From Bacteroidaceae bacterium (lineage in GTDB: Bacteria; Bacteroidota; Bacteroidia; Bacteroidales; Barnesiellaceae_A), in NCBI GenBank assembly GCA_017410245.1, contig JAFQRE010000017.1:131296-195295 (forward strand): a DNA stretch of 64,000 nucleotides, in the 5' to 3' direction. Shown in pieces: positions 37,730 through 53,440 of this stretch. Numbering within the stretch: position 1 is the stretch's first letter; every line of letters begins with the position of its first letter. The notes beneath the pieces are model-generated. The model made no database searches. It was given only the letters and a program-made list of their open reading frames with translations, and was not told the DNA's origin. The position numbers and the translations under genes were made by a program.

Positions 37730-39460
37730 TTATTTTTGTATTTGCGCAATCCATTCGGCTACGTTATCGACTGTAGGATTGGGCAAATTGAGTTTGTATT
37801 TTTTGTTTACACCACATATCTCTTGATGTAGTTTTTGCGGATTTACCTCGGCCATGTCGGCAACTGTGAGGTAGCCGGCTTTCTGTATGGGAGCTACCCA
37901 CTCGGCCGGTACACCAATGGCTGTGTATGCTGCTTCGTTGTCGCGTTTTTGTGTCTTCTCGGGACGCATTTGGGGGAAGAGCAACACCTCTTGTATGGTG
38001 GGCTGATTGGTCATGAACATAACCAAGCGGTCGATACCGATACCAATACCAGCTGTAGGTGGCATGCCATATTCGAGGGCTCGCAAGAAGTCTTGGTCGA
38101 TATACATAGCTTCGTCATCGCCCTTTTCCGATAGACTGAGCTGGTACATGAAGCGCTCGCGCTGATCTACGGGGTCGTTCAACTCCGAGTATGCGTTGGC
38201 AAGCTCTTTACCATTTACCATCAACTCAAAGCGCTCTGTGAGGTTGGGGTTGTTGCGGTGACGCTTGGTAAGGGGCGACATCTCAATGGGATAATCGGTA
38301 ATGAATGTGGGTTGTATATAGTTACCCTCACATTTCTCTCCAAATATTTCGTCGATGAGTTTGCCCTTACCCATGGTCTCATCGGTCTCAATACCCAGTT
38401 GGCGGCATACATCGCGAAGTTGCTCTTCTTCCATGCCGGTGATGTCTATGCCGGTGTGCTCCTTGATGGCCTCTATCATGGTTACGCGTTTGTAGGGAGC
38501 CTTGAAGCTGACTTGGTTGTCGCCGATGGTTATCTCAGTAGTGCCGTTTACGGCTATACATATCTTCTCGAGCATCTCCTCGGTAAAGGTCATGAGCCAA
38601 TTGTAGTCTTTGTACGACACGTACAACTCCATGCAGGTAAACTCGGGGTTGTGAGTGCGATCCATGCCTTCGTTGCGGAAGTTGCGTGAAAACTCATACA
38701 CACCCTCAAAACCACCTACGATGAGGCGTTTGAGATACAACTCATTGGCAATACGCAGGTAAAGAGGTATGTCAAGAGCATTGTGGTGAGTGATGAAGGG
38801 TCGAGCCGATGCACCACCGGGGATAGCTTGCAATACGGGAGTATCTACCTCAACATAGCCGTGCGAGTTCATAAAGTCGCGCATGGTGTTGAATACTGTT
38901 GCACGTTTCATGAAGATGTCTTTCACGCCTTCGTTCACCACCAAGTCAACGTAGCGTTGGCGGTAGCGCAACTCGGGATCGGAGAAGGCATCATATACCA
39001 CGCCGTCTTTCATCTTGACAACGGGGAGTGGACGCAATGACTTCGACAATACGGTGAGCTCTTGGGCATGAATGGTTATCTCGCCCATCTGGGTGCGGAA
39101 AACATATCCCTTGATACCTACGAAGTCGCCTATATCAAGAAGTTTCTTGAATACTGTGTTATACAACTCTTTGTCCTCGCCGGGGCATAGGTCATCGCGC
39201 GAGATATATACTTGAATACGACCTTGCGAGTCTTTCAACTCCATAAACGAAGCCTTACCCATGATGCGACGGCTCATGATACGACCGGCAACCGATACTT
39301 GTCGAGGCTCGGCATCATCGCTAAAAGACTCTTTTATCTCTGTTGTATATGCGTTTACTACATATTCGGCGGCGGGATAAGGTTCAATGCCTATGCGACG
39401 CAGTTCCTCCATGCTATTGCGGCGGATAATTTCCTGTTCGCTCAATTCTAAGATATTCAT
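37730..39460 (-). CDS. lysS: lysyl-tRNA synthetase (class II) with C-terminal extension
   Basis: A 576-residue LysRS. An OB-fold anticodon domain (VAGRIMSRRIMGKASFMELKDSQGRIQVYI) is followed by the class II core: FMNSHGYVEVDTPVLQAIPGGASARPF, FRNEGMDRTHNPEFTCMELY (motif 2) and GIGIGIDRLVMFMTNQPTIQEVLLFP (motif 3). After motif 3 the protein continues about 75 residues (ending VDNVAEWIAQIQK), longer than the ~505 residues of E. coli LysRS; the tail is predicted helical and is known to me from other Bacteroidales. First gene of the lysS-gpsA-pgi operon. Confidence 0.96.
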   Translation of the reverse strand: MNILELSEQEIIRRNSMEELRRIGIEPYPAAEYVVNAYTTEIKESFSDDAEPRQVSVAGRIMSRRIMGKASFMELKDSQGRIQVYISRDDLCPGEDKELYNTVFKKLLDIGDFVGIKGYVFRTQMGEITIHAQELTVLSKSLRPLPVVKMKDGVVYDAFSDPELRYRQRYVDLVVNEGVKDIFMKRATVFNTMRDFMNSHGYVEVDTPVLQAIPGGASARPFITHHNALDIPLYLRIANELYLKRLIVGGFEGVYEFSRNFRNEGMDRTHNPEFTCMELYVSYKDYNWLMTFTEEMLEKICIAVNGTTEITIGDNQVSFKAPYKRVTMIEAIKEHTGIDITGMEEEQLRDVCRQLGIETDETMGKGKLIDEIFGEKCEGNYIQPTFITDYPIEMSPLTKRHRNNPNLTERFELMVNGKELANAYSELNDPVDQRERFMYQLSLSEKGDDEAMYIDQDFLRALEYGMPPTAGIGIGIDRLVMFMTNQPTIQEVLLFPQMRPEKTQKRDNEAAYTAIGVPAEWVAPIQKAGYLTVADMAEVNPQKLHQEICGVNKKYKLNLPNPTVDNVAEWIAQIQK

Positions 39461-39485
39461 AAGCTTCAAAATCTACTATTTTGTG

Positions 39486-39636: not shown

Positions 39637-39691
39637 GTTTTTCATTTGCAGAAAAAATTATTTTGTTGTTGCCCAATTTGTTGTATGCTCG

Positions 39692-39699
39692 TACCTTTG
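39692..39699 (+). promoter_or_regulatory. -7 box of the ~340-nt RNA candidate
   Basis: TACCTTTG, perfect TAnnTTTG. A -33 box is poor (TTG about 20 nt upstream), as expected for an activated promoter. Transcription would start near 39706. Confidence 0.55.
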
Positions 39700-39705
39700 T
39701 GTCGT

Positions 39706-40045
39706 GAATGAGAAAGTAATCAATTTCACACTCCACATATTGCATGTGGACCTCATACAATAGGTTAAGGTAAAGATTGGTTTTATTATTACAGAGATTA
39801 AGGTTAAAAATAGGTTTTTAGGTAAGATTGTTTTAAAGGTAGATTTGATTGTTTGTAAGGTTTTCAATAAGATTAAGAAGATTGTTAGTGAATATGGTGC
39901 TGTCGTGAGATAGGGAAGCCATCAAGTCCCCGAAGGGGCAAACATGCAGGTTGCGAGTAATCGCAACCTTCCGAGAGAGCAGGAAACTGCCTCCTCAAGA
40001 ATACACAAAGGAGAATATCGCGAGATGTTCTCCTTTGTTGCTTTA
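39706..40045 (+). ncRNA. candidate ~340-nt structured RNA with a C-depleted segment
   Basis: Between lysS and the HTH gene lies a transcript-like unit: -7 box at 39692, hairpin TCCACAT/ATGTGGA (39732-39738 with 39744-39750), then 141 nt (39759-39899) holding only two C residues, then hairpins CCCC-GAA-GGGG (39928-39938), GGTTGCGA-GTAA-TCGCAACC (39949-39968) and GCAG-GAAA-CTGC (39979-39990), and a terminator (40005-40038). Two loops are GNRA tetraloops. The C-poor part is open in one frame (39764-39913) but has no ATG. I do not recognise RNase P, tmRNA, a cobalamin riboswitch or group II intron motifs. A LacI-type operator lies upstream. Confidence 0.55.
40005..40038. terminator. terminator of the RNA candidate, shared with the HTH gene
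   Basis: 11-bp stem (40005-40015 with 40028-40038), inner ATC-GCGA-GAT, followed by TGCTTTATG. Confidence 0.65.
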
Positions 40046-40059
40046 TGTGATAACGATGT

Positions 40060-40458
40060 TTAACGGGTTTGTTTTAGCTCTTTGAGCATTTCTTGATTGA
40101 TAGATACTTGTGTGCGCAAATAGTCAAGTTGGCTGATGAGTAAATCTATCTTTTCTTGTTGTTTCTTTAGCATTGCATTTTGTGATGCAATGGTTGTAAT
40201 GATGTTTGACATGGTATTGACAGTATCGGCTGCACCTTTGAGTAGCATATCGCCTGTTCCCATGATAAACCATGTAGGGTTGAGTTCGGGGTACGCTGTA
40301 AGGATTTTGACTATTGTGTCGTAAGACAATCCCTTGCCCGACCGTCTCTGTTTGCCCAGAGTGCCCACGGCTATCTTGGCTTGTATCGTTATGCGATTGT
40401 CGTTTAGGCCTTTGTATTGCATGAATTCATCAAGGCGGGTGAATAATGTGCTCTCCAT
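40060..40458 (-). CDS. HTH (Xre/CI-like) transcriptional regulator with coiled coil
   Basis: A 132-residue protein. Residues about 1-70 resemble a helix-turn-helix of the Xre/CI type (RLDEFMQYKGLNDNRITIQAKI, GKGLSYDTIVKILTAYPELNPTWFIMGTGDMLL); the NPTWFIMGTGDML ending is typical of Bacteroidota phage-repressor-like HTH proteins. Residues about 85-128 form a coiled coil (NAMLKKQQEKIDLLISQLDYLRTQV) likely used for dimerisation. No protease domain. Target unknown; it is convergent with the RNA candidate, so it may be unrelated. Confidence 0.8.
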   Translation of the reverse strand: MESTLFTRLDEFMQYKGLNDNRITIQAKIAVGTLGKQRRSGKGLSYDTIVKILTAYPELNPTWFIMGTGDMLLKGAADTVNTMSNIITTIASQNAMLKKQQEKIDLLISQLDYLRTQVSINQEMLKELKQTR

Positions 40459-40642: not shown

Positions 40643-43390
40643 TTATTTTTTTACAAATTTCATGCTTTGATTGTTGTTACCATTGGCAATGTTGAGTATA
40701 TACATACCGGCGGGGAGGTCACTTACTTCTACGCAGTTGCCCTCGGCCTCGCGTACCATTGCTCCCGACAGATTGTACACTGTGAGCTTGCCTTGTGCGT
40801 TGGTGTAAACGTAGTTGGTGGCGGGGTTGGGATATACAGTATATTCAACCTTGTCGCTCATGGTGTTATCCACTCCTGTTACCTCAAAGTTGGTGTATAT
40901 AACGCAACTATTGGCGGGAACGGTGTGTGAGAAACTATTGGTGCTTACTTCCAATGTCTCGTCGGTGAGGAGGTTGGTCCATGTGCCGGTCTTGGGGAAC
41001 ATGATGGTGTAGTTGCCATCTTTCTCGGTGAGGTTGATAGCTGCCACAACGCTCTTGTTGCCATCGGCACTCACAAGAGTGACAAAGCGGCCATTGCTCC
41101 AATTGCTCTCGTTGAGTTGGTAGGTAAATGAAGCATCGTCGGCAAACAACTCTGAGTGGAAGTTGCGCAAGGTATTGAGTTGTGCATAGGCATAGCGCAG
41201 ACGATAGCGGTCTTCGTCCTCGAGATAGTTCCATACTACGGGCTTTTCGGCAGTGCGGTCGCCGTTGTAATTTATGCTATAGTCGTAGCCGAGTTCGCCA
41301 AACTGCCATATCATCTTAGGTCCGGGAATGGTGAGGAACTGAGCAACGTTGGCAATAGCTTGGTTCATGCGAGTTTTGTGGTCGGTCTTAACTTTCAAGT
41401 TGCCCCATTGAGTAGCCTTGTATGTGGTGCGCTCCTCATCGTGACTCTCCATGAAGCCTACGTAGGCATTCTTGGGCATACTGCTACCGTTGGCATATAT
41501 ACCGGCAACACCGCTACGCTCTTGGTGTCCCATAGCCGATTGACAGTAAGCATCGTTCATGTTGCGCCACACCATCATACCTTCTTGAGCCAATGCTTTC
41601 TCCTCATTCTCGGCACAGAAGTGCTCAAGAATTACACAAGCATCGGGGCGAACGGCCTTGATAGCATTGTTGTACTCCTTGAGAATGTTGATACGAGATT
41701 GGTCGTAGTTGCTTGCTGTGCTCTCGTTGCAATAGCGATTGGTAAAGCCTTTGGTCAAGTCGAAGCGGAAACCGTCAATCTTGTACTCTTCGAGAAGATA
41801 TACAAGGTTGCGTTTGATATACTCCTTCACCTCGGGAACTTCGTGGTTGAAGTCGTGGAATACACTATAGGGGTGGGGGGCATCTACGTTAAACCAAGGG
41901 TTGTTTGCGGCTGTTTTGTTGTTCTTCTCGTCCCACCACAACTTGCAGTAGGGGAAGTTTCCTGTAGCGTGGTTATATACCACATCAAGGAATACGGCTA
42001 TACCCAACTTGTGACACTCGTCGATAAACATGCGGTAGTCCTCATCGGTACCGTATGCCTTGTCGAGTGCAAAGAAGTAGGCGGGGTTGTAGCCCCAGCT
42101 GAGGTTGCCGTCAAACTCTTGTACGGGCATCAACTCAATGGCATTTACACCCAAACCTTGCAAGTAGGGCAGCTTGCCCATGGCATCTTTGAGCGATTTT
42201 TTCGATGTGAAGTCGCGGAGCAACAACTCATAGATGACAAGGTTGCTACGGTTTTCTACTTTAAAGTCGGTCACTTGCCATTGGTAGTCCGAGCCTGTGG
42301 TTTTGAATGCAGTTGCGGGCTGTTCCCAAGCCTTGGCGGGGAAATCGCGCAAGCCGGGATATATTGACTCGTCTATCCATTTGTCGTTCCAAGGGTCGAG
42401 TATCTTGGTAGAGTAGGGGTCGGCAAATCGTATGGCGTTGCCATTTTGGGGTACAACGTGGTACTGGAAGGCATACTCTTTGCCGGGCTCCAAGCCATCG
42501 ATGGTAATCCACCAGCACTTGTTGGCAAGGTCGCGTTTCATCATGTAGTCGTTGCTGATGTTCCAGTCGGTGTTATCACCTACCCAGAATACATATTTGC
42601 TGTAAGCACCATTCTTGTCACAGTCGAAGAGAACGAATGTAACAGTGTTCTCATCAATGATATTGATACCTTCTTTGGTTCCCTCGGGGCGTGATTCATT
42701 TACTACAGCACCGCAAACGGTGAGGGCAGCACTTGTATCGTGTTGCTCGGTAGCTGTAGCAGCTTGAGCATCGATTGTGTAGTCGCCCGTAGTGGCAAAA
42801 GTATAGTTCTGAGTCAATGTAGTAGCGTTGTCGGCTGTAAATGTATCGGTACCATTGGGGCCTGTGATAGTGAGGGTGATAGTGGCACTCTTGGTAGATT
42901 TTACAGTGATGGGCATTTGAGTTCCCTCCGATGCGATACCCGATGTGGGAAGTCCGCTTATCTCGGCATAGAGGGCGGCATCTTCGCAAGGTATCATGAT
43001 GTCGGGGCGTGTTTGCTTTGAGCCATCGGCGTTGCGCACTACTACACCAATAGTGTTAATCTCGATTGTAGCACCAAAATACTCACGTACAGTGGGGCTG
43101 AGAGTTATTGACCATGTTTTGTCGGCATCTTTGGTCATCTTATATTTGGGACTGTTGTCGCACCATTGTGCGGGACCGTTGTGCCATGTTTCGGTTGCAT
43201 CTACTACTCCTATGTGTACATACAATTCGTCTGTATCCGAAAAGATGTTATTGGTATCAATCCAAGTTATTTTACCCTCCTTGTCGGCATTAAGAGGGTT
43301 GGGTGTTGTCATATATGTTCCCGTTCCCTGTGCCCATGCCATCATTGCTGTGGCGATGGTTGCTATAAGAAGAAATAATCTCTTTTGCAT
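40643..43390 (-). CDS. secreted GH13 alpha-amylase with type IX secretion sorting domain
   Basis: A 915-residue enzyme for starch or maltodextrin hydrolysis outside the cell. Signal peptide MQKRLFLLIATIATAMMAWA; N-terminal beta domains including a probable starch-binding/early-set region (about 20-360); GH13 barrel with DVVYNHATG, GFRFDLTKGF (nucleophile Asp about 541), ILEHFC (acid/base Glu about 588) and MESHDEER (third Asp about 648). The C-terminal about 75 residues (YPNPATNYVYTNAQGKLTVYNL ... PAGMYILNI ... SMKFVKK) are a type A sorting domain for the type IX secretion system. It closes the operon behind susF; a hairpin separates them. In Bacteroides the equivalent SusG is instead a lipoprotein. 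Confidence 0.93.
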   Translation of the reverse strand: MQKRLFLLIATIATAMMAWAQGTGTYMTTPNPLNADKEGKITWIDTNNIFSDTDELYVHIGVVDATETWHNGPAQWCDNSPKYKMTKDADKTWSITLSPTVREYFGATIEINTIGVVVRNADGSKQTRPDIMIPCEDAALYAEISGLPTSGIASEGTQMPITVKSTKSATITLTITGPNGTDTFTADNATTLTQNYTFATTGDYTIDAQAATATEQHDTSAALTVCGAVVNESRPEGTKEGINIIDENTVTFVLFDCDKNGAYSKYVFWVGDNTDWNISNDYMMKRDLANKCWWITIDGLEPGKEYAFQYHVVPQNGNAIRFADPYSTKILDPWNDKWIDESIYPGLRDFPAKAWEQPATAFKTTGSDYQWQVTDFKVENRSNLVIYELLLRDFTSKKSLKDAMGKLPYLQGLGVNAIELMPVQEFDGNLSWGYNPAYFFALDKAYGTDEDYRMFIDECHKLGIAVFLDVVYNHATGNFPYCKLWWDEKNNKTAANNPWFNVDAPHPYSVFHDFNHEVPEVKEYIKRNLVYLLEEYKIDGFRFDLTKGFTNRYCNESTASNYDQSRINILKEYNNAIKAVRPDACVILEHFCAENEEKALAQEGMMVWRNMNDAYCQSAMGHQERSGVAGIYANGSSMPKNAYVGFMESHDEERTTYKATQWGNLKVKTDHKTRMNQAIANVAQFLTIPGPKMIWQFGELGYDYSINYNGDRTAEKPVVWNYLEDEDRYRLRYAYAQLNTLRNFHSELFADDASFTYQLNESNWSNGRFVTLVSADGNKSVVAAINLTEKDGNYTIMFPKTGTWTNLLTDETLEVSTNSFSHTVPANSCVIYTNFEVTGVDNTMSDKVEYTVYPNPATNYVYTNAQGKLTVYNLSGAMVREAEGNCVEVSDLPAGMYILNIANGNNNQSMKFVKK

Positions 43391-43422
43391 GTGATTGTTG
43401 TTATATGTCATTATTAAAATAA

Positions 43423-43459
43423 ACAAGGTGGCATACACCAATGGGTATGCCAGCCTTGT
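43423..43459 (-). terminator. attenuator-like hairpin between susF-like and amylase genes
   Basis: Stem ACAAGG-GGCATAC with GTATGCC-CCTTGT (43423-43459, one mismatch on each side), followed on the minus strand by TTATTTTAAT. May reduce amylase expression relative to the sus genes. Confidence 0.55.
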
Positions 43460-43479
43460 AGTTATTTACACACTCTTTA

Positions 43480-44940
43480 TTAGAGTTTTGTTACTGTGTA
43501 ATAGGGCTCTTGAGCGCAGAAGTAGAAACGTACCTCATAGTCGCCAGCTTCGGCAACAGAGATGTCAGCTCCATCGCGAGCAAGAGTACCATTACCGGCA
43601 CCTGCATCACCATAGTTGATAGGCCAATCTTCGTTGGCACGAATCTTGAACTTGGCATCAGCTTCCAATGTAACTGTAGCTACCAAGTAGTCGGCACCGG
43701 CCTCGGTAGAGAGGTTCATAGCTACGTCGGGAGCAGCCCAACCATTGAAGGTACCAACAAGACCCCAAGTGTTCACTGTGTTGAGAATGTTGAGTGTCAA
43801 GTTTGTTGCATCGAAAGCAACTTCGTAGCTGAATGCGCTGTATTGAGTGATGTTGCCTGCGCCACCGTCGGTAGAGAGGAGCATCGAGGGAGCCTCGGCT
43901 GCTGCTTCTTCACCGGCACCGTAGTTGATACCATTCCAGTCGGCTTGAGTAGAAATCTTCCAACCATTGGCACCTGCGCCGTTCAATACAATCCAACCTT
44001 GTGCGGGAGCACCGGCTACACTGTAAAGACGTTGGCCATCAACTTGGCTCCAACCGCTGAAGTCACCTACTACGAAGTACTCGATAACATCGGGAACTAC
44101 CTCTACAGTGTAAGTGTAAGACTCCATGTTGAGGGTAATCTTGTAGTTACCGGCACCGGGGAATTTCATGGCACCGGCAGCTGTAGCGTTGTCGGCGAGT
44201 GAGCCTTCGGTAGATGTGCTACCATCGGCCTCAGTGTTACCAAGAACTGTATCCCATGAACCGCTGTCGATAGCCGATTGAGGAGCTACCTTCCAGTATT
44301 TCTCACCATCAACTGTTACTGTGAGGGTGAAGATAGGATCTTCGTAAACATCTTTACCACTGTGGCTGAAGGGCATAGTAGCGGCAGCAGCGAAGTCCCA
44401 ACCGGGTACATCACCGATGAGGTAGTATGCACTCTCGATGGGAGTGGCAATGGGAGTAGCTGTAGCAGTAACTACATTTGAGTAGAGTTCGATGTTACGG
44501 CCTGAAGGGCTGCTGACAATACCTCTTACCGATGCATAGAAAGTATCGGGTTGAGGACGTTTGCCAAAGAGTGTTTGAATCTTGGCGTTGAGGTCGGCAG
44601 CTGCAATAGCAACGTTATCACCTGTAATAGTAGCAGGAATTGTTACTTTGCCTTGCATGTCGGCTGTAGCAGCCATGAAGAGTTCATACGCAACTGTTGA
44701 GCCGGCCTCCAACTCAGGAGTGGCGCTCAAGTCGATAGTAAATGCTGCAATTGAGTCGGCAGTATAAGAGTTGAGGTCGATAGGTTGAGCCAACTCATTG
44801 GCTGCGATTGTGATAACAGTCTCAGCGGGATCTACGGGGTCGTAGCTTACAGGAGGCAATGCGGGCTCTATCTCGGGAGTACATGCCGAGAATGCTACCA
44901 CTCCTGCCAACAATGTGCTGAAAATCGATATTTTTTTCAT
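43480..44940 (-). CDS. SusF-like starch-binding outer-membrane lipoprotein
   Basis: A 486-residue surface lipoprotein: MKKISIFSTLLAGVVAFSAC lipobox (Cys about 20), an N-terminal Ig-like SusE-type domain with PEIEPALPPVSYDPVDPAETV, then three CBM-like modules each opening with a strand-turn such as YYLIGDVPGWDFA, YFVVGDFSGWSQ and WGLVGTFNGWAAPD. Each carries aromatic residues as in SusE/SusF, which bind starch on the cell surface. Fourth gene of the operon; the C-terminal module ends with AQEPYYTVTKL. Same family as the gene before it, probably by duplication. Confidence 0.88.
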   Translation of the reverse strand: MKKISIFSTLLAGVVAFSACTPEIEPALPPVSYDPVDPAETVITIAANELAQPIDLNSYTADSIAAFTIDLSATPELEAGSTVAYELFMAATADMQGKVTIPATITGDNVAIAAADLNAKIQTLFGKRPQPDTFYASVRGIVSSPSGRNIELYSNVVTATATPIATPIESAYYLIGDVPGWDFAAAATMPFSHSGKDVYEDPIFTLTVTVDGEKYWKVAPQSAIDSGSWDTVLGNTEADGSTSTEGSLADNATAAGAMKFPGAGNYKITLNMESYTYTVEVVPDVIEYFVVGDFSGWSQVDGQRLYSVAGAPAQGWIVLNGAGANGWKISTQADWNGINYGAGEEAAAEAPSMLLSTDGGAGNITQYSAFSYEVAFDATNLTLNILNTVNTWGLVGTFNGWAAPDVAMNLSTEAGADYLVATVTLEADAKFKIRANEDWPINYGDAGAGNGTLARDGADISVAEAGDYEVRFYFCAQEPYYTVTKL

Positions 44941-44971
44941 TTTTATTCGATATTAATGGTTTTTGTTGAGA

Positions 44972-45006
44972 GAGGGGAGCGGGGCGGTTTCTGTCCCGCT
45001 CTCCTC
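44972..45006 (-). other. GC-rich hairpin between the susE-like and susF-like genes
   Basis: 12-bp stem (44972-44983 with 44995-45006, one G-U pair), no T-run. Likely an intra-operon stability or processing hairpin. Confidence 0.5.
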
Positions 45007-45025
45007 GTGATATTATCTCGGTCTG

Positions 45026-46195
45026 TTATTTCGCAAAGAAATAGTAGTTACCGTCGATATCGTTGAATACAACTTCGTAAGTACCGGCTTTGATTTGAAT
45101 GTTGTTGCCCGACTTAACTGTTGAGTAGGGGAATGAATCACCACCCCAGTTGTTATCCCAAGCAGAATTGGCGCGGAACTTACCTTCGTAGTCGGCATCG
45201 AATGTCATGGTAGCATACCAGAGGTGTTTCATGTTCATAGGAGTCATCATGATGGGAGCCTCACCCCAGTTGTCGAATGAGCCAACGAACTCCATCGAGG
45301 TGTACTCGTTGGGAGTAATATCGGCAGCCTCAAACTTACCTTCGAATTTCTCTGAGTTGGCAGTGAGTGTGTAGTAACCGCTCTCGGCAACAGTGATGTT
45401 GCCCGAACCACCGTCGTTGAATACGAGGTTGGTACCGTCCGAACCTACTTGGATATCCCAGCTACCGGGAACGAGAACGAGCTTGTAGCCCAAGCCTGCC
45501 TCGAAGTAGCCTGTGAATGTGAAGTCACCGGCACCTGTTACAGTGTTGTAGCTGAAGCCATCTACCAAGCTCATAGGAACAAGACCGGCAGCGGCACCAT
45601 CGGCGCTGTTTGACCAGCTGTTGAAGTCACCAACAAGCCAGTAGGGTTGAGGAAGTGCATCTACCAACAACATGTAGTAGGGTTGAATGCTCAATTTGAT
45701 AACGTTAGAGTAGCAATCCTTGATAGTGGGAACAGATTCGGTCACAGAGGGAGTTGCGTCAGAGAGGTGTGCGCGCAAACGAACGTAGATGTCCATAACA
45801 CCGGGGTTCTCGTTTACGTTGTCACCTTGCAACAATGTGATGGCTTTGTTCATATCCTTGGTGTTGATAGGATATGTTTGACGAGAACCTACCGACTCGA
45901 GTTCTACGAAAGTAGCCTCTTCGAAAGTCTCACCAAAGCTCACTTGAGCATAGTATTGTGTAGCGGCAGTGAAACCATAGTCGGGTTGCTCGCGTACATA
46001 GATAGTCTCCATAGTCTCGGCACCTTTAGCTTCGCTCAAGACGTATGTGTAGCCGGCATAGGCGGGAGTATTGATCTCAAATGAGAGTGTGCCTTCTGTT
46101 GCAGCCGGATTGATGGTGGTCATGGGGTGCTCTTGGCAACCTACAAGAAGTGCCAACCCCATTACGCCGGAGATAATATAATTTAACTTTTTCAT
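45026..46195 (-). CDS. SusE-like starch-binding outer-membrane lipoprotein
   Basis: A 389-residue lipoprotein (lipobox ALLVGC, Cys about 20) with an N-terminal SusE-type Ig domain (GTLSFEINTPAYAGYTYVL, DIYVRLRAHLSD, YSNVIKLSIQPYYMLL) and two glycan-binding modules starting PYWLVGDFNSWSNSADG and MEFVGSFDNWGEAPIMM. It should hold starch chains near the SusCD channel. Third gene of the operon, 25 nt behind susD. Confidence 0.88.
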   Translation of the reverse strand: MKKLNYIISGVMGLALLVGCQEHPMTTINPAATEGTLSFEINTPAYAGYTYVLSEAKGAETMETIYVREQPDYGFTAATQYYAQVSFGETFEEATFVELESVGSRQTYPINTKDMNKAITLLQGDNVNENPGVMDIYVRLRAHLSDATPSVTESVPTIKDCYSNVIKLSIQPYYMLLVDALPQPYWLVGDFNSWSNSADGAAAGLVPMSLVDGFSYNTVTGAGDFTFTGYFEAGLGYKLVLVPGSWDIQVGSDGTNLVFNDGGSGNITVAESGYYTLTANSEKFEGKFEAADITPNEYTSMEFVGSFDNWGEAPIMMTPMNMKHLWYATMTFDADYEGKFRANSAWDNNWGGDSFPYSTVKSGNNIQIKAGTYEVVFNDIDGNYYFFAK

Positions 46196-46220
46196 ATTAT
46201 TTCAGTTTTAAGGCAGTTTA

Positions 46221-47756
46221 TTAATAACCGTCGTTTTGTTCCAAATTGGGGTTAGCGTTCAAATCCGAAACGGGGAGGGGGAGAATGTTGTACTTGGCAT
46301 CGAATGAAGTACCGTTGGCAACACCTGCTTTCCAGTCCCAGTTGTAGTTTGTATTACCACCGAAGCTGTTGAAACGAACGAGATCGATACGACGACGACC
46401 CTCGAAGTAGAACTCACGGCACCACTCGTCGCGGAGAACATCGAGTGTGAGGTTGCTTACCTCTTGAGCGTTGGCACGTTGGCGCAATGCGTTGAATTTC
46501 TCGATAGCAGCTGCTGACTCGCCCAAGCGGAATTTAGCCTCGGCATAAGTCAAGTAAGCCTCTGCAGCGCGAAGGAAAGGAATGTCGGTCTCGGGAACCT
46601 TCACCTCTACGTCGTTGCTGGCAACGGGAAGACCTGTCTCTGAATCGAGGTTGTTCCATTTGGTTACACCCCAACCGCTTGTGAAAGCATTGGGATCGCT
46701 GATGGTGGGATCGTTAGATGTTTGGTAGAACAAAGCACGGTCATCGGCACCATTTTGGAATTTCTCAACGAGCGATTTACGAGCGCGGATACCACCCCAA
46801 CCATCGATTGTACCCCACTCGGGCATGCCTGCAGTGTGAGTAGAAGCAACAAGGAAGTAAGAACCAGAGTAAGTCTTGGTGTAGTTACCGTGTTGTGCGA
46901 TGGGAAGAATGATTTCTTGCATAGCATCGGCATTGGTGTCGTTGTTACCCATGAAGAGGGCAGCATAGTTGTCGGCCAATTTGTAGTTTGAGTTGATTAC
47001 TTTCTCGGCATAAGTAGCAGCATCGGCCCAGCGAGCAGTACCGGTGTAAACCTCGGCGTTGAGGTAGATACGAGAGAGAAGCAACCAAGCAGCAGCGCGG
47101 TCAACACGATAGTACATGCCGGCACCGGGTTGGCTCATGTCGTTTTGCATTTCGAGCAACTCTTGCTCAAGGAAAGCAAAGATATCGGCGCGAGTGCTTT
47201 GTTTGGGCGACTCACTCTCAACCTTGGTTACCAAAGGAACGTTGGCGTACATATCCATGAGGTAGTAGTAGTTGAGGGCGCGGATAAAGCGAGCCTCGGC
47301 ACGTTGCAATTTAGTCTCTTCGTTATCGATGTCGGCAGTCATCTCCAAGAAGTGGTTGCAGAGAGTAACACCGAAGTAGAGACGATAGTAAAGACCTTGT
47401 ACGAATACGTCGGTATCGGTCCAGCCTGTATAGTTGGCTTCGGTAACACCTTGGTCGCTAAACCAGCAGCAGAGAGCCTCATCACCGGCCAAGTTGTTGA
47501 GATACCACAATGTTCGGTAGAAACCCGATTGACCTTCGTCGATACCCATGGCATCGAGGTCACCACCACCGGCAGTACCGGTCATACCGGTCATACCCAT
47601 AGAGGCATAGATTTTGGTGAAAACGGCTTGTTGGTCGAACTCTTGCGACACTTGGGGGTTGATAGGTGTCACATTCAAGTCGTCCACGCAAGAGGTAAGT
47701 GAGAGAGCCAATGCCATCGCACTACCTACAATTATATTTTTGATATTAAGTTTCAT
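46221..47756 (-). CDS. SusD/RagB-family glycan-binding lipoprotein
   Basis: A 511-residue surface lipoprotein with signal MKLNIKNIIVGSAMALALSLTSC (Cys about 23). SusD hallmarks: QAVFTKIYASMGM near the N-terminus, helical TPR region (RAEARFIRALNYYYLMDMYANVPLV, RADIFAFLEQELLEMQNDM, AAAWLLLSRIYLNAEVYTG), and the C-terminal core (IPFLRAAEAYLTYAEAKFRLGES, LRDEWCREFYFEGRRRIDLVRF). It forms the lid of the SusC channel and binds the sugar; substrate starch/maltodextrin is inferred from the locus. Starts 26 nt after susC. Confidence 0.95.
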   Translation of the reverse strand: MKLNIKNIIVGSAMALALSLTSCVDDLNVTPINPQVSQEFDQQAVFTKIYASMGMTGMTGTAGGGDLDAMGIDEGQSGFYRTLWYLNNLAGDEALCCWFSDQGVTEANYTGWTDTDVFVQGLYYRLYFGVTLCNHFLEMTADIDNEETKLQRAEARFIRALNYYYLMDMYANVPLVTKVESESPKQSTRADIFAFLEQELLEMQNDMSQPGAGMYYRVDRAAAWLLLSRIYLNAEVYTGTARWADAATYAEKVINSNYKLADNYAALFMGNNDTNADAMQEIILPIAQHGNYTKTYSGSYFLVASTHTAGMPEWGTIDGWGGIRARKSLVEKFQNGADDRALFYQTSNDPTISDPNAFTSGWGVTKWNNLDSETGLPVASNDVEVKVPETDIPFLRAAEAYLTYAEAKFRLGESAAAIEKFNALRQRANAQEVSNLTLDVLRDEWCREFYFEGRRRIDLVRFNSFGGNTNYNWDWKAGVANGTSFDAKYNILPLPVSDLNANPNLEQNDGY

Positions 47757-47782
47757 GACTAATAATTTTGCGTAGTTTTAGA

Positions 47783-50737
47783 TTAGAAATCGAGAGTCAA
47801 ACCGATCAACGATACGAGAGGACGGGGATACATGTTGTTGTCGATACCACCATTTACCTCGGGGTCGATACCATTGTAGCCGGTAATCACGAAGGGATTT
47901 TGTACTGTTGCATATACACGACCGCTGAATACGCTACCCTTGAATGAGTAACCAAGAGTGATGTTGTCGCAGCGGAGGAATGATGCGTTTTGTACATAGT
48001 AGTCGCTTGCATAAGAGTCGTCAGTTCCGAAGAATTGAGTGTCAAGAGCCGACAAGGGACGGTTCGAGAAGAAACCGAGTGTCGAGTAGATGTCGAGGTT
48101 AGAGTTGCAAGCATCGTTGTTGTTATATACGTAGTTGCCGAGAGCAGCACGCAATGAGAAGCTGAAGTCCCAGTTCTTCCACATCAACTTAGATGTGAAG
48201 CCCATAGTAACGTCGGCTGCGGGGTTCTCATATACATATTTATCGGCACCTGTGATTTGACCATCGGCGTTGCGGTCAACGAAGCAACCTTGAATGGGTT
48301 TGCCTGTCTCGGGGTCATACACTTGCTCATATACATAGAATGAACCGGCGGGATAACCTACCTTGTGGATCTTGATGGGCGAACCTGTACCGGCCGAAGC
48401 ATAACCTGCCTCTACGTAGTAGTCGTCGCTTACACCATTAGAGAGTTTGGTAATCTCGTTTTGGTTGTATGTTACGTTGTAACCAACTTCCCAAGTCCAG
48501 TCTTTGGTTTGTACGGGAGTAGCCTCGATAGAGAACTCAACACCTTGGTTGCGGAGTGAACCTACGTTGCTCATCACAGCGGGACCGAAGTTAGTACCGG
48601 CCGATACGCTTGTCATGTTCAAGAGGTCTTTGGTGTCGCGCAAGTAATAGTCGATAGCACCACGGATACGGCCGTTCAAGAAACCGAAGTCAAGACCGGC
48701 GTTGTAGGTAGTAGTCTCCTCCCACTTGAGGTCGGGGTTGTATGCATCGGGACGAGCATAGGGATAGTAGATGTAGTTGCCATTCTCATCGATGCCGATG
48801 GGATAGAAGGCGTGGTCTTTACTTTGTGAGTAAACGGGGATATAGTCGTAGTAACCACCAATCTCTTGTTGACCGGTGATACCCCAACCCAAGCGGAGCT
48901 TGAGGTCGCTCAACCAATTAACGTCTTGCAAGAATGACTCTTCTTTGATCTTCCATGCGAGAGCAACTGAGGGGAAGAGACCCCAACGGTTGTCGCCAGA
49001 GAAGCGGCTGGTACCATCGTAACGTACTGTTGCAGTCAAGAGGTAACGGCTGAAGAGTTGATAGTTCAAACGACCGAAGAACGATACCAAGTAGTTCTCC
49101 ATTTTCCATAGATCGCCAGTGGGGTTGTCACCGTCCAAGTTGTTGTATGCGCTTTCGCCTTCGTTGTAGAAATGTTGCCACTCGTAACCGGCCATCACGT
49201 CAATGTTGTTTGCACCAAACTCCTTGGCATATTGCAAGTAGGCATTCAACATCTTGTTTGATTTGTACTTGGTTGTGTAACCGTTGCTACCTTTGTTCAA
49301 TGTGCTGGCAGCTTCGCGGGGCAAATAAGTGTTTTGAGTACCACCAGCAACGTCGATACCGATGTTGGCATGAACGCGCATGTCGGGGAAGAAGTGGAGC
49401 TTATAGTCGGCCTCGATGTTACCGATGAAGTCCCATGAAGTAGCCTCATCACGTTTTTGCTCGAGCAATGAAACGGGGTTGATAGGAGCTTGAGTGTTCC
49501 ATACGTTGCCGTTCATCCATTGCCAGTAGCCACCATTGGCAGCGATGTCGCTATTTACGGGTTGAGTGGGGTCGAAGGCAGCTGCACCACCAATGGCACC
49601 ACCGTCGGCATAACGGTTGTTTACCAACATACCCTTAGCGTTGATATTAAATTTCAAATAGTCTTCGAAGAATGTGGGAGCCAAGTTCACCGATGCAGTG
49701 AAACGCTCGAAGTTAGAAGTCTTAACGATACCGTTTTGGTTGGTGTAGCCAACAGAAACGCGGTAGGGCATCCAGCTGAGACCACCGGCGAGAGTCAAGT
49801 TTTGGTCGTGGCTGAGCGCATTGCGGTAGATAAGGCTTTGCCAGTCGGTGTTGGCAGTACCTAACAGGCCAAGAATGTCGCTGGCGTTCTCACGCTCGCC
49901 ATAGATGTCTTGAGCAAGAGCACGGAATTGGTCACCGGTCATCACCTCGCGCAAGCGAACGGGAGTACTTACCGATACGTTGCCGTTGTAAGAGAGACGG
50001 GGCTTAGAACCTTTGTCACCCTTCTTGGTAGTGATGATGATCACACCATTGGCAGCACGCGAACCGTAGATGGCAGTTGCCGAAGCGTCTTTGAGGACTG
50101 TGAAAGACTCGATGTCGTTGGGGTTGATTGTGCTTAAGGGGTTGGCAACACCTTGGATACCATTGTTGTCGAGGGCAAGACCGTCGATAACAACGAGGGG
50201 TGAGTTGCTAGCCGAGAGTGAAGAACCACCACGAATAGTGATAGTAGCACCAGCACCGGGAGTACCACCGTCCGAAACAACGTTTACACCGGCGATTTTA
50301 CCGGTAATCATGTCTTGAGCGTTGGTAACGAGACCCTTGTTCATGGCATCGGGCTCGATGGCTGTTACAGAACCGGTAGCATCGGCTTTCTTAACAACAC
50401 CATAACCAATCACCACAGCCTCTTCGAGAACGTGAGCATCTTCTTCAAGAGTGATCACGAGCGAAGGTGCAGCTGCAACTTCTTGGGGTTTGTAACCAAT
50501 GTAGCTAACCTTGATGGTAGCTCCTTGTTCGGCTTTCAATGAGAAGTTACCATCGATGTCGGTGGTAGTTCCCGTTGTCGTACCTACTAGCATAGCGTTT
50601 GCGCCAATGATAGGCTCGCCATACGCGTCTTTTACGTGTCCCGATACTACGATTTGCTGTGCAAATGCGGCGATAGAGAAGCAGAGCAGCATGGCTGCTG
50701 CGAGCACTCTGGGGACTTTTTTACTAACGTAATTCAT
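47783..50737 (-). CDS. SusC/RagA-family TonB-dependent transporter
   Basis: A 984-residue outer-membrane channel. Signal peptide (about 1-26, ending AFAQ), an N-terminal carboxypeptidase-D-like domain (VSGHVKDAYGEPIIGANAMLVG), TonB box region (LEEAVVIGYG), plug with DMITGKIAGVNVVSDGG, IRGGSSLSASNSPLVVIDG, FTVLKDASATAIYGSRAANGVIIITTKKG, and a 22-strand barrel ending YPRPLVSLIGLTLDF with terminal Phe. It imports maltooligosaccharides with the SusD lid, driven by TonB. First gene of the minus-strand operon; its promoter lies behind a LacI-type operator. Confidence 0.95.
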   Translation of the reverse strand: MNYVSKKVPRVLAAAMLLCFSIAAFAQQIVVSGHVKDAYGEPIIGANAMLVGTTTGTTTDIDGNFSLKAEQGATIKVSYIGYKPQEVAAAPSLVITLEEDAHVLEEAVVIGYGVVKKADATGSVTAIEPDAMNKGLVTNAQDMITGKIAGVNVVSDGGTPGAGATITIRGGSSLSASNSPLVVIDGLALDNNGIQGVANPLSTINPNDIESFTVLKDASATAIYGSRAANGVIIITTKKGDKGSKPRLSYNGNVSVSTPVRLREVMTGDQFRALAQDIYGERENASDILGLLGTANTDWQSLIYRNALSHDQNLTLAGGLSWMPYRVSVGYTNQNGIVKTSNFERFTASVNLAPTFFEDYLKFNINAKGMLVNNRYADGGAIGGAAAFDPTQPVNSDIAANGGYWQWMNGNVWNTQAPINPVSLLEQKRDEATSWDFIGNIEADYKLHFFPDMRVHANIGIDVAGGTQNTYLPREAASTLNKGSNGYTTKYKSNKMLNAYLQYAKEFGANNIDVMAGYEWQHFYNEGESAYNNLDGDNPTGDLWKMENYLVSFFGRLNYQLFSRYLLTATVRYDGTSRFSGDNRWGLFPSVALAWKIKEESFLQDVNWLSDLKLRLGWGITGQQEIGGYYDYIPVYSQSKDHAFYPIGIDENGNYIYYPYARPDAYNPDLKWEETTTYNAGLDFGFLNGRIRGAIDYYLRDTKDLLNMTSVSAGTNFGPAVMSNVGSLRNQGVEFSIEATPVQTKDWTWEVGYNVTYNQNEITKLSNGVSDDYYVEAGYASAGTGSPIKIHKVGYPAGSFYVYEQVYDPETGKPIQGCFVDRNADGQITGADKYVYENPAADVTMGFTSKLMWKNWDFSFSLRAALGNYVYNNNDACNSNLDIYSTLGFFSNRPLSALDTQFFGTDDSYASDYYVQNASFLRCDNITLGYSFKGSVFSGRVYATVQNPFVITGYNGIDPEVNGGIDNNMYPRPLVSLIGLTLDF

Positions 50738-50826
50738 GCAGATTAGATTAAAAAAGTTGTTAATATTTGGGTTTTTGTGTTAGTCATGATTATAAATGGC
50801 TACAATGAGCCATAATATTCCGATTG

Positions 50827-50834
50827 CAAATATA
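50827..50834 (-). promoter_or_regulatory. -7 box of the susC operon
   Basis: Minus-strand TATATTTG, about 90 nt before the susC ATG. The palindromic operator ends exactly 55 nt upstream. No TTTG -33 box is present at the usual distance, compatible with a promoter needing an activator. Confidence 0.6.
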
Positions 50835-50889
50835 AATTTATTTAGCATCTTGTCTTATTTATTTAAGTGAAAAAAAATAATTTAACATT

Positions 50890-50901
50890 GCAAACGTTTG
50901 C
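50890..50901. promoter_or_regulatory. LacI-type operator between susC and the regulator gene
   Basis: GCAAACGTTTGC, perfect palindrome. Its right half contains the TTTG used as -33 box of the regulator gene (50897-50900), so binding should repress the regulator while the site is about -70 from the susC start. Confidence 0.8.
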
Positions 50902-50927
50902 GTTACTTTTTTTCTTTATTATTTTTG
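50897..50927 (+). promoter_or_regulatory. promoter of the LacI-family gene
   Basis: TTTG (50897-50900), 19-nt spacer, TATTTTTG (50920-50927), full consensus; the -33 element lies inside the operator. Confidence 0.7.
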
Positions 50928-50998
50928 TGCAGGGAATTAAATTCCTCAATAAGTTGCAAATTTGAAACATGAAATAATACCTTAATTCTAATCGGCTT

Positions 50999-52015
50999 AT
51001 GTCTTCACACATTACCATTAAAGATATTGCCAAGGCAATGGGCTGCGCCCCCTCTACGGTGTCGCGTGCGCTGAATAATAGTGCCAATATCAGTCCGGCT
51101 GTGCGCGAGGCTATACAACGTTATGCGCTCGAACACAATTATCGTCCCAATGAGTTTGCATTGAGTTTACGCAACAATCGCTCCAACACGATAGGTGTTA
51201 TATTGCCTCAGATAGTACACTACTTCTTTTCGAGTGTCTTGTCGGGTATTGAAAAGGCTGCTGCTGCTGCCGGATACAATATTATTGTGGCACAGAGCAA
51301 TGAGGAGTATGAGAAGGAGGTGGCTATCGTGGAGTCTTTTCGTAAAGCAAAGGTTTGCGGAGTGATAGCTTCGTTGGCCAAAGGTACGTATGACTTCACT
51401 CACTTCCGTCGTTTGGTCGATGAGGAGGTGCCATTGGTCTTTTACGACCGCATATGCACCGAACTCAATACGTCGCGCGTGGTGGTCGATGACTATACAG
51501 GAGCCTTTGCCGCAGTCGAGCACCTTATTGAGACAGGGTGTAGCAAGATTGCTTTTTATACTTCGCCCTTGCATCTGGAGATTTCGAAAAATCGTCGCAA
51601 TGGCTATGTTGATGCCCTGCGCAAGCATCGTATTGAGGTAGATAATGATATGATAATAGAGTGTGACAATCGTGCCCGTGCACGCGAGCTTACTATGAAA
51701 CTCATATCGAGCCCGGAACGCCCCGATGCCTTCTTTGCCGTCAATGCCGATACGGCAGCGGGCATCTTGTATGCTTGTAAAGATGCCGGATTGCGTGTGC
51801 CCGAAGATGTGTCGATATGCGGCTTCTCGGATAACGAGATGGCACGTTCTACCGAGCCTCGCTTGTCGATGGTAGATCAGCCGGGCGAAGCCGTTGGGCA
51901 AGGGGCTATGGAGTTGCTCTTGGCCAAGATTGATGGCAATGAGGAGAAACTTGTGTATAAAAATAAGATAGTAAAGACCTCGCTCATATTGCGCGGAACT
52001 ACTCGTGAAAAATAA
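50999..52015 (+). CDS. LacI-family regulator of the starch locus
   Basis: A 338-residue regulator. The N-terminal helix-turn-helix TIKDIAKAMGCAPSTVSRAL (6-25) is followed by the hinge region YRPNEFALSLRNN and a periplasmic-binding-protein-like effector domain (NTIGVILPQIVHYFFSSVLSGIEKAAAAAGYNI, LPLVFYDR-type VPLVFYDRICTEL, FAAVEHLIETGC, PDAFFAVNADTAAGILYACKDAGLRVPEDVSICGFSDNE). The effector is probably a maltooligosaccharide or derived sugar (inference). First of three plus-strand genes with the MFS permease and the GH13 enzyme; divergent from susC with the shared operator between. Confidence 0.94.
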   Translation: MSSHITIKDIAKAMGCAPSTVSRALNNSANISPAVREAIQRYALEHNYRPNEFALSLRNNRSNTIGVILPQIVHYFFSSVLSGIEKAAAAAGYNIIVAQSNEEYEKEVAIVESFRKAKVCGVIASLAKGTYDFTHFRRLVDEEVPLVFYDRICTELNTSRVVVDDYTGAFAAVEHLIETGCSKIAFYTSPLHLEISKNRRNGYVDALRKHRIEVDNDMIIECDNRARARELTMKLISSPERPDAFFAVNADTAAGILYACKDAGLRVPEDVSICGFSDNEMARSTEPRLSMVDQPGEAVGQGAMELLLAKIDGNEEKLVYKNKIVKTSLILRGTTREK

Positions 52016-52053
52016 TGAACAAATCGAAATCATAAATCTAAATATTAATATGT

Positions 52054-53406
52054 ATGAAAACTAAACCCGACTTGTCTTTTATGAAACTCTTCAACTTGAG
52101 TTTCGGATTTTTCGGTGTACAGATTGCGTATGCCTTGCAGAGTGCCAATTGCAGCCGTATTTTTGCTACTCTTGGTGCCGACCCACACAGCCTTAGTTTC
52201 TTTTGGATTTTACCCCCGTTGATGGGTATTATCGTACAACCCCTTGTGGGAAAATGGAGCGATAATACTTGGACTCGCTTTGGCCGCCGCATTCCTTACC
52301 TCTTCTTGGGTGCGCTTGTAGCTGTATTGGTGATGTTTATGTTGCCCAATGCCGGTAGCTTTGGCCTCTCGGTGAGTGCCGCTATGCTCTTTGGTGTTGT
52401 GGCTTTGATGTTCCTCGATACTTCTATCAACATGGCCATGCAACCCTTCAAGATGATGGTGGGTGATATGGTGAATGAGAAGCAAAAGACTCTTGCCTAC
52501 TCGATACAGAGCTTCTTGTGCAATGCAGGTAGTTTGGTGGGTTATTTGTTCCCCTATATCTTCACTGCGTTGGGCGTTGCAAGTGTTGCTTCGGCCGGTG
52601 AGATACCCGACTCGGTGAAATGGTCGTTCTATATTGGTGCCATTATCCTCATACTTTGTGTTATCTATACTACAATGACTGTGAAGGAGATGCCTCCCAA
52701 AGAGTATGCCGAGTATCATGGTATAAAGGAGGAGGATAACAGCGAGAAGGTGAGTATGCTGAAACTGCTTGTCAAAGCTCCTAAAACTTTCTGGACCGTA
52801 GGCTTGGTACAGTTTTTCTGTTGGGCTGCCTTTATGTATATGTGGACCTATACCAATGGTGCTATCGCCGAGACTGCCTTCAATGCTCCCATCGTGAATG
52901 GTATGCTCGATACTGCATCTGAGCAGTATCAGGCTGCCGGTAACTGGGTGGGTGTGCTCTTTGCCGTACAAGCTGTAGGCTCGGTTTTGTGGGCTGTCGT
53001 GTTGCCTATGTTCCGTAGTCGCAAGTTGGCATACTCTTTGAGCCTTGTATTGGGTGCGGTAGGTTTTATTTCAACCTATTACATTCATGACCAATATATG
53101 CTATTTGTCTCTTATGCGCTCATTGGTTGTGCTTGGGCTGCTATGTTGGCTATGCCTTTTACAATCCTTACCAACTCATTGTCGGGCAAGCACATGGGCA
53201 CATACTTGGGCTTGTTCAATGGAACTATTTGTCTGCCCCAAATCATAGCAGCCGCTACCGGTGGTCTTGTATTGAGCTTGATGCCTCACACAGCCAGTGG
53301 CATTGCTCCGCAAGGCATGATGCTCGTATTGGCCGGTGTATTCTTGTTGTTGGGTGCTGTTTCGGTATTTATCATCAACGAGAAGAAGCAAGACGAGGAG
53401 GCTTGA
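52054..53406 (+). CDS. MFS sugar permease (SLC45/maltose type)
   Basis: A 450-residue inner-membrane protein with 12 segments. Features: QIAYALQSANCSRIFATLGADPHSL, the loop 2-3 motif GKWSDNTWTRFGRRIPY, VNEKQKTLAYSIQSFLCNAG and LTNSLSGKHMGTYLGLFNGTICLPQII. This fits bacterial maltose/sucrose proton symporters related to SLC45. It should bring maltose or short maltodextrins from the periplasm to the cytoplasm. It lies 38 nt behind the LacI gene and 34 nt before the GH13 gene, a natural operon. Confidence 0.9.
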   Translation: MKTKPDLSFMKLFNLSFGFFGVQIAYALQSANCSRIFATLGADPHSLSFFWILPPLMGIIVQPLVGKWSDNTWTRFGRRIPYLFLGALVAVLVMFMLPNAGSFGLSVSAAMLFGVVALMFLDTSINMAMQPFKMMVGDMVNEKQKTLAYSIQSFLCNAGSLVGYLFPYIFTALGVASVASAGEIPDSVKWSFYIGAIILILCVIYTTMTVKEMPPKEYAEYHGIKEEDNSEKVSMLKLLVKAPKTFWTVGLVQFFCWAAFMYMWTYTNGAIAETAFNAPIVNGMLDTASEQYQAAGNWVGVLFAVQAVGSVLWAVVLPMFRSRKLAYSLSLVLGAVGFISTYYIHDQYMLFVSYALIGCAWAAMLAMPFTILTNSLSGKHMGTYLGLFNGTICLPQIIAAATGGLVLSLMPHTASGIAPQGMMLVLAGVFLLLGAVSVFIINEKKQDEEA

Positions 53407-53440
53407 TTGTAGATTACTAATTATATAATGTATAGATAAT

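Follow-up and report, generated by a model that had tools for sequence, protein, structure and literature searches.

A candidate structured RNA gene beside lysS, restricted to one genus of Bacteroidales, carries a cytosine-poor linker with repeated short motifs

What might a bacterial genome gain from a 141-nt segment that holds almost no cytosine? In the window, by which we mean the whole 64,000-nt stretch of DNA that was analyzed, positions 39759-39899 of the + strand contain just two C, one at 39792 and one at 39865 (A49 C2 G34 T56), far below the 20.9% of C across the window, and our base count agrees with the preliminary description on this point. The segment was the C minimum of the window when all 141-nt stretches of both strands were compared (C or G counted); the G minimum per 141 nt anywhere in the window was 10, and no other cluster with eight or fewer C or eight or fewer G per 141 nt was found elsewhere in it. 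In a further 365,198 bases of the same genome (14% of 2,527,947), none of 362,398 stretches of 141 nt had four or fewer C or four or fewer G, the lowest C count being five. Similarly, two or fewer C or G per 141 nt occurred at none of 74 lysS loci of other, non-genus Bacteroidales (789,479 bases), and the poorest 100 nt at each of the six genus loci in that scan had 0-1 C.

The segment forms part of what appears to be a free-standing RNA gene of about 335 nt (39704-40039, + strand), whose reality is strongly supported by sequence conservation and covariation within the genus. The order is promoter box, 5′ hairpins, C-poor linker, 3′ hairpins, and terminator, with the following features.

37730 to 39469, - strand: lysS, lysine--tRNA ligase, the divergent left neighbor in 9/9 genomes
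39669 to 39699, + strand: putative Bacteroidetes-type promoter, with TTG at 39669-39671 and a -7 box TACCTTTG at 39692-39699
39704 to 39750, + strand: 5′ domain (P1 and P2), from covariation and folds
39704-39708 with 39725-39729, + strand: P1, one pair changed on both sides (alignment A1)
39732-39737 with 39745-39750, + strand: P2, two pairs changed on both sides (alignment A1)
39759 to 39899, + strand: C-poor linker, with seven AGGT and four GATTG
39762, 39768, 39801, 39812, 39820, 39837, and 39858, + strand: AGGT sites, from a motif count in the window
39775, 39826, 39847, and 39880, + strand: GATTG sites, from the same motif count
39765 to 39786, + strand: invariant 22-mer TTAAGGTAAAGATTGGTTTTAT, identical in 9/9 genomes
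39894 to 39994, + strand: 3′ domain (P3-P6), from covariation (P3) and individual folds (P4-P6)
39894 to 39922, + strand: P3, GUGA loop, six pairs changed on both sides over its two parts
39926 to 39939, + strand: P4, from individual folds
39948 to 39969, + strand: P5, from individual folds
about 39973 to 39994, + strand: P6, from individual folds
40005 to 40038, + strand: 15-bp terminator hairpin, 11 core pairs 97% kept, six both-sided changes
40060 to 40458, - strand: convergent gene of 132 aa, HTH-regulator-like by eye, with no NCBIfam match

The Bacteroidetes promoter consensus is TTG/TAnnTTTG. The -7 box, which the preliminary description had already recognized, reads TACCTTTG in eight of the nine genomes and TATCTTTG in the ninth. 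That description had also proposed an RNA of about 340 nt starting at 39706, with hairpins closed by GNRA-type loops and a terminator. These elements are present (the P3 loop is GUGA, and GAGA in genome G003), and the gene is conserved and covarying in the genus, but the 5′ end is likely nearer 39704, where P1 starts, than 39706. The terminator, a near-palindrome, may be used by the convergent HTH-like gene as well as by the RNA.

The 334-nt RNA fold was 4.1 s.d. better than that of dinucleotide shuffles. When P1, P2, P3, and the terminator were scored on an alignment of the sequences of all nine genomes, 93.2% of 279 cells were paired, compared with 83.7% in shuffles and 38-57% when the structure was slid, and both-sided changes were seen in 15 of the 31 pairs. 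The covariation score was 0.418, compared with 0.239 for shuffles (0/500 as high) and 0.08-0.22 for slid versions, over which the tested structure has an advantage, being derived from one of the nine sequences. P4-P6 are visible in individual folds, with weaker support than P1-P3 and the terminator. Because the comparison of P5 and P6 assumes one register across hairpins of unequal length, the covariation claim is based on the nine-sequence test. The stem-by-stem counts omit G007 (P3-P6), G006 (P5 and P6), and G002, G008, and G007 (outer P3). In G007, alignable P3-P6 are lost, and its folds show other hairpins and a terminator; since its 3′ domain does not align, alignment A3 and the model of the 3′ half (R1) were built without it.

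A BLAST search placed the RNA beside lysS in 9/9 genomes of the genus, with identities of 73-81% among the copies. To its right, the HTH-like gene and then an alpha-amylase-like gene (the GH13 end of a Sus locus) follow in eight of the nine genomes; in G007, the remaining one, the contig stops short of the position of the HTH-like gene. The Sus-type starch/maltodextrin locus, which abuts the RNA at 40643-55369, encodes SusC (47783-50737), SusD, SusE/F-like lipoproteins, a GH13 protein with a T9SS sorting tail, a LacI-type regulator, a transporter, and a second GH13 protein. By BLAST, the RNA occupies one place per genome; the only additional matches were another fragment of the one copy in G003 and the palindromic terminator matching itself.

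The covariance-model search among Bacteroidales that the preliminary description had proposed returned no relative outside the genus, and neither did the search with the 22-mer nor the scan of lysS loci, where no such linker lay upstream of lysS in the 74 non-genus loci. The model of the 5′ half and linker (R2) matched 3 of 198 genomes, all of them in the genus and each with one match. With up to two mismatches, the 22-mer was found in 11 of 393 genomes, namely six of the genus and five with single two-mismatch matches; a reversed 22-mer control gave four matches, about as many as these five. R1 matched 13 of the 198 genomes, two of them in the genus. Inspection covered 8 of the 11 non-genus genomes (nine places), leaving aside the weak matches in G056, G017, and G037 and the second place in G095, and the inspected matches were rejected as relatives: they were mainly terminator hairpins of other genes (rpsO-like, tRNA, and Trp-tRNA ligase-like, named by eye), and one lay within an ORF. 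No relative of the RNA was found in phages or plasmids, nor any exact match of the 22-mer in viral contigs. In Rfam 15, tRNA was the only match at gathering score in the whole window, and near the locus the best E value was 0.82, from unrelated families. We found no published report of the RNA or of a C-free bacterial small RNA in open-licence PMC papers, a scope that makes this absence weak evidence. A separate C-poor stretch was seen in another family (genome G075, locus L138, approximately 1473-1607 of the reverse complement), with 2 C per 100 nt before a terminator hairpin; no sequence relation to the genus RNA was seen.

Within the genus, the aligned linker columns held 2-4 C in 120-139 nt in 9/9 genomes. 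Columns varying between A and G and those varying between C and T stood at 30:10 in the linker and 82:68 in the flanks (Fisher p = 0.029), a modest test on nine genomes that are related by descent. This excess suggests that C is excluded from the linker, its rarity being more than an effect of descent, and the C-poverty thus seems to be maintained by evolution in the genus. In fold predictions, the C residues outside the linker were mostly paired. The mean unpaired probability was 0.37-0.44 in the linker and 0.41-0.44 in random AT-rich linkers, whereas for G alone it was 0.41-0.52 in the linker and 0.30-0.36 in the random ones, which means that G is predicted to be freer in the linker. The preliminary description had pictured a single-stranded bait between structured parts. 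The conserved exclusion of C agrees with such a bait or docking strip, but the linker is not predicted to be wholly unpaired: its predicted overall unpairedness does not exceed that of random linkers, which disfavors a literally single-stranded linker.

The linker is also rich in short motifs. AGGT occurs 6-8 times per linker, compared with 1.7-2.1 times in dinucleotide shuffles (p 0.00-0.01 in each of the nine genomes), and GATTG occurs 2-5 times, compared with 0.1-0.2 times; the site arrays share descent, so that the nine genomes do not count as independent tests. In the 365-kb sample of the same genome, the maximum was five AGGT per 141 nt, and no stretch had seven. Each of the nine genomes has 7-9 AGGW sites, several of which occupy different alignment columns; columns 79/80 and 86 hold a site in every genome, and the remaining sites appear and vanish by lineage. 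A steady count with shifting positions is as expected if the number of sites, and not their place, is under selection. A weak 7-bp hairpin can form around the 22-mer (39765-39786), its outermost G-U being G-C in four genomes, and apart from it the genus alignment gave no consensus fold of the linker. The composite motif AGGTNNNGATTGNTTT had no other position, common to the genus, at which target leaders could be suspected. Taken together, these comparisons give good support to a structured RNA gene that is confined to the genus and whose linker is poor in C, bears motifs, and is under selection.

As the best explanation of this gene, we tentatively propose a trans-acting RNA whose multi-site, C-free strip would titrate an RNA-binding protein in the manner of CsrB or CrcZ. 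In this proposal, the hairpins at both ends would shield the RNA, give it its fold, and hold most of its C in pairs, the linker would display repeated AGGU(A/U) and GAUUG sites, and the exclusion of C would keep the G of these sites from being buried in strong G-C pairs, so that the sites could titrate the protein. By analogy, the gene is laid out like that of a titrating RNA, with many short sites between folded ends and C where the RNA is predicted to be paired. The transcript itself would start from the putative promoter described above. The length of the invariant 22-mer counts against the proposal, since a simple repeated site for a protein could be shorter.

CsrB and RsmZ carry GGA (ANGGA) in hairpin loops and titrate CsrA, and CrcZ carries A-rich CA motifs and titrates Hfq/Crc. 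Like these RNAs, the genus RNA is free-standing, is a few hundred nt long, and has many short sites, structured parts, and a terminator. However, its sites are AGGU and GAUUG in a C-poor linker; the 6-8 AGGT found in 9/9 genomes reproduce the repetition seen in CsrB and RsmZ, but as AGGU, not ANGGA. The protein partners also differ. Searches of the nine genomes detected no CsrA (PF02599; controls matched), on which CsrB and RsmZ depend, no Hfq (PF17209; controls matched), on which CrcZ depends, no RRM protein (PF00076; matched in the Bacteroides ihuae control), and no cold-shock (CSD) protein. In these searches the Bacteroides control matched for RRM only, two of the nine genomes are less than 90% complete, and divergent family members can escape. 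Since none of the four families was detected, no partner can be named, and CsrA, Hfq, and cold-shock proteins were set aside as candidates. A sponge for an RRM protein was attractive because RbpB of B. thetaiotaomicron is reported, in a passage of PMC12119571, to bind GUAGGAUA, and AUAGGAUU stands at the linker start in four genomes; this candidate was rejected as well, no RRM protein having been found in the nine genomes.

The FopS/GibS RNAs, which act with RbpB, are Bacteroidales small RNAs that combine a terminator with a single-stranded part, and they are described in PMC11697453 as lying near or acting on polysaccharide loci. They resemble the genus RNA in these respects but are multicopy and have an RRM partner, whereas the genus RNA is about 335 nt long, sits at a single place in each genome, has 5′ and 3′ domains that covary, and lacks an Rfam match, and no RRM protein was detected in the genomes that carry it (0/9). 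Similarly, 6S RNA is a free-standing conserved bacterial RNA but forms a long rod-like hairpin, which is absent from the folds of the genus RNA; the 6S model RF00013 had no match in the nine genomes, nor in the Bacteroides control, so that this negative carries little weight. In all, the RNA resembles a protein-titrating RNA but, on the tested features, does not belong with CsrB, CrcZ, or FopS.

The strongest competitor of the titrating RNA, which we consider possible and somewhat doubtful, is a base-pairing small RNA. Its AGGU and GAUUG seeds would pair with ACCU and CAAUC in C-containing, G-poor stretches of several mRNAs, with the 22-mer as main seed and C excluded to keep the seeds open. 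The invariance of the 22-mer and the repetition of the short motifs accord with this reading, and it is a natural one because the RNA abuts a Sus-type locus and, according to PMC11697453, Bacteroides small RNAs such as FopS and GibS act on polysaccharide loci. The target prediction suggested in the preliminary description, however, yielded no specific C-containing target. Complements of the 22-mer core (AACCAATCTTTACC, with one mismatch or none, in nine genomes) were scattered, lay mostly within or antisense to coding sequence, and never fell in a leader shared by the genus. No pairing was predicted at the starts of the five sus genes at 40643-50737 (z 0.3 to 1.7), and the best of 49 ORFs in the window reached z -2.8, which chance allows; the prediction over these ORFs used no accessibility term, and short seeds would evade both the complement and the pairing tests. 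Three narrower forms were rejected: a long antisense to a single conserved target (no conserved long complement in nine genomes), pairing with the neighboring sus genes (none predicted at their starts), and a Shine-Dalgarno mimic, as the linker paired with the 16S anti-SD tail worse than most shuffles in 9/9 genomes (0.86-0.995 of shuffles pairing equally well or better).

Two further explanations turn on Rho, which requires C in unstructured RNA. The linker could be a C-free spacer that lets a long untranslated RNA escape Rho while its structured ends do the work; this agrees with an unstructured part without C and with C-bearing parts that form hairpins, but it predicts neither a motif array nor an invariant 22-mer, both of which are present, and we consider it quite unlikely. 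Alternatively, the minus strand could be a C-rich, G-poor rut site, read from the convergent HTH-like gene, that halts antisense transcription. The minus strand has 22-24% C, 2-5% G, and 16-19 YC dimers in every genome, reproducing the C-over-G bias and YC dimers of Rho utilization sites, and the convergent gene is present in 8/8 resolved genomes. However, the exact 22-mer, the promoter box, and the covarying hairpins are features of an RNA gene on the + strand, an architecture that together with exact sequence conservation sets the locus apart from such sites; a palindromic terminator already lies in between; and the identity of the 22-mer goes beyond what rut needs, as rut sites require no such sequence identity. 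We give this explanation only a slight chance.

An array of binding sites in DNA with no RNA function, for example for the neighboring HTH protein, would account for short repeated motifs that adjoin a putative regulator gene, but the sites lie in one orientation, C is excluded from the spacers too, which DNA binding would not require, and the flanks show RNA covariation, making this very improbable. A small protein gene, in the 39764-39913 frame or a minus-strand frame, has almost no probability left: the 39764-39913 frame, whose codon-level conservation the preliminary description had named as the finding that would overturn its view of a region with no credible gene, is open for 48 codons in the window but has no ATG, GTG, or TTG near its start and is broken in the other eight genomes (at most 29 stop-free codons on the + strand), whose length differences are not multiples of three.

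Returning to the titrating RNA, a more specific form of it can be imagined, which we consider unlikely as a whole. One base would have been selected out of a 140-nt linker so that the site array stays open, C would be confined to the locking hairpins, and the partner would be an undescribed Bacteroidales RNA-binding family that takes the place of the Hfq, CsrA, RRM, and cold-shock proteins, which went undetected. The locus adds an RNA family with no Rfam 15 match, present in every genome of the genus examined, in which four familiar families of RNA-binding proteins went undetected. Should the linker prove to be a titrating strip, it would be a bait for a global RNA-binding protein in gut Bacteroidales, and the design rule that it would follow, in which dropping one base keeps the sites open, can be searched for elsewhere.
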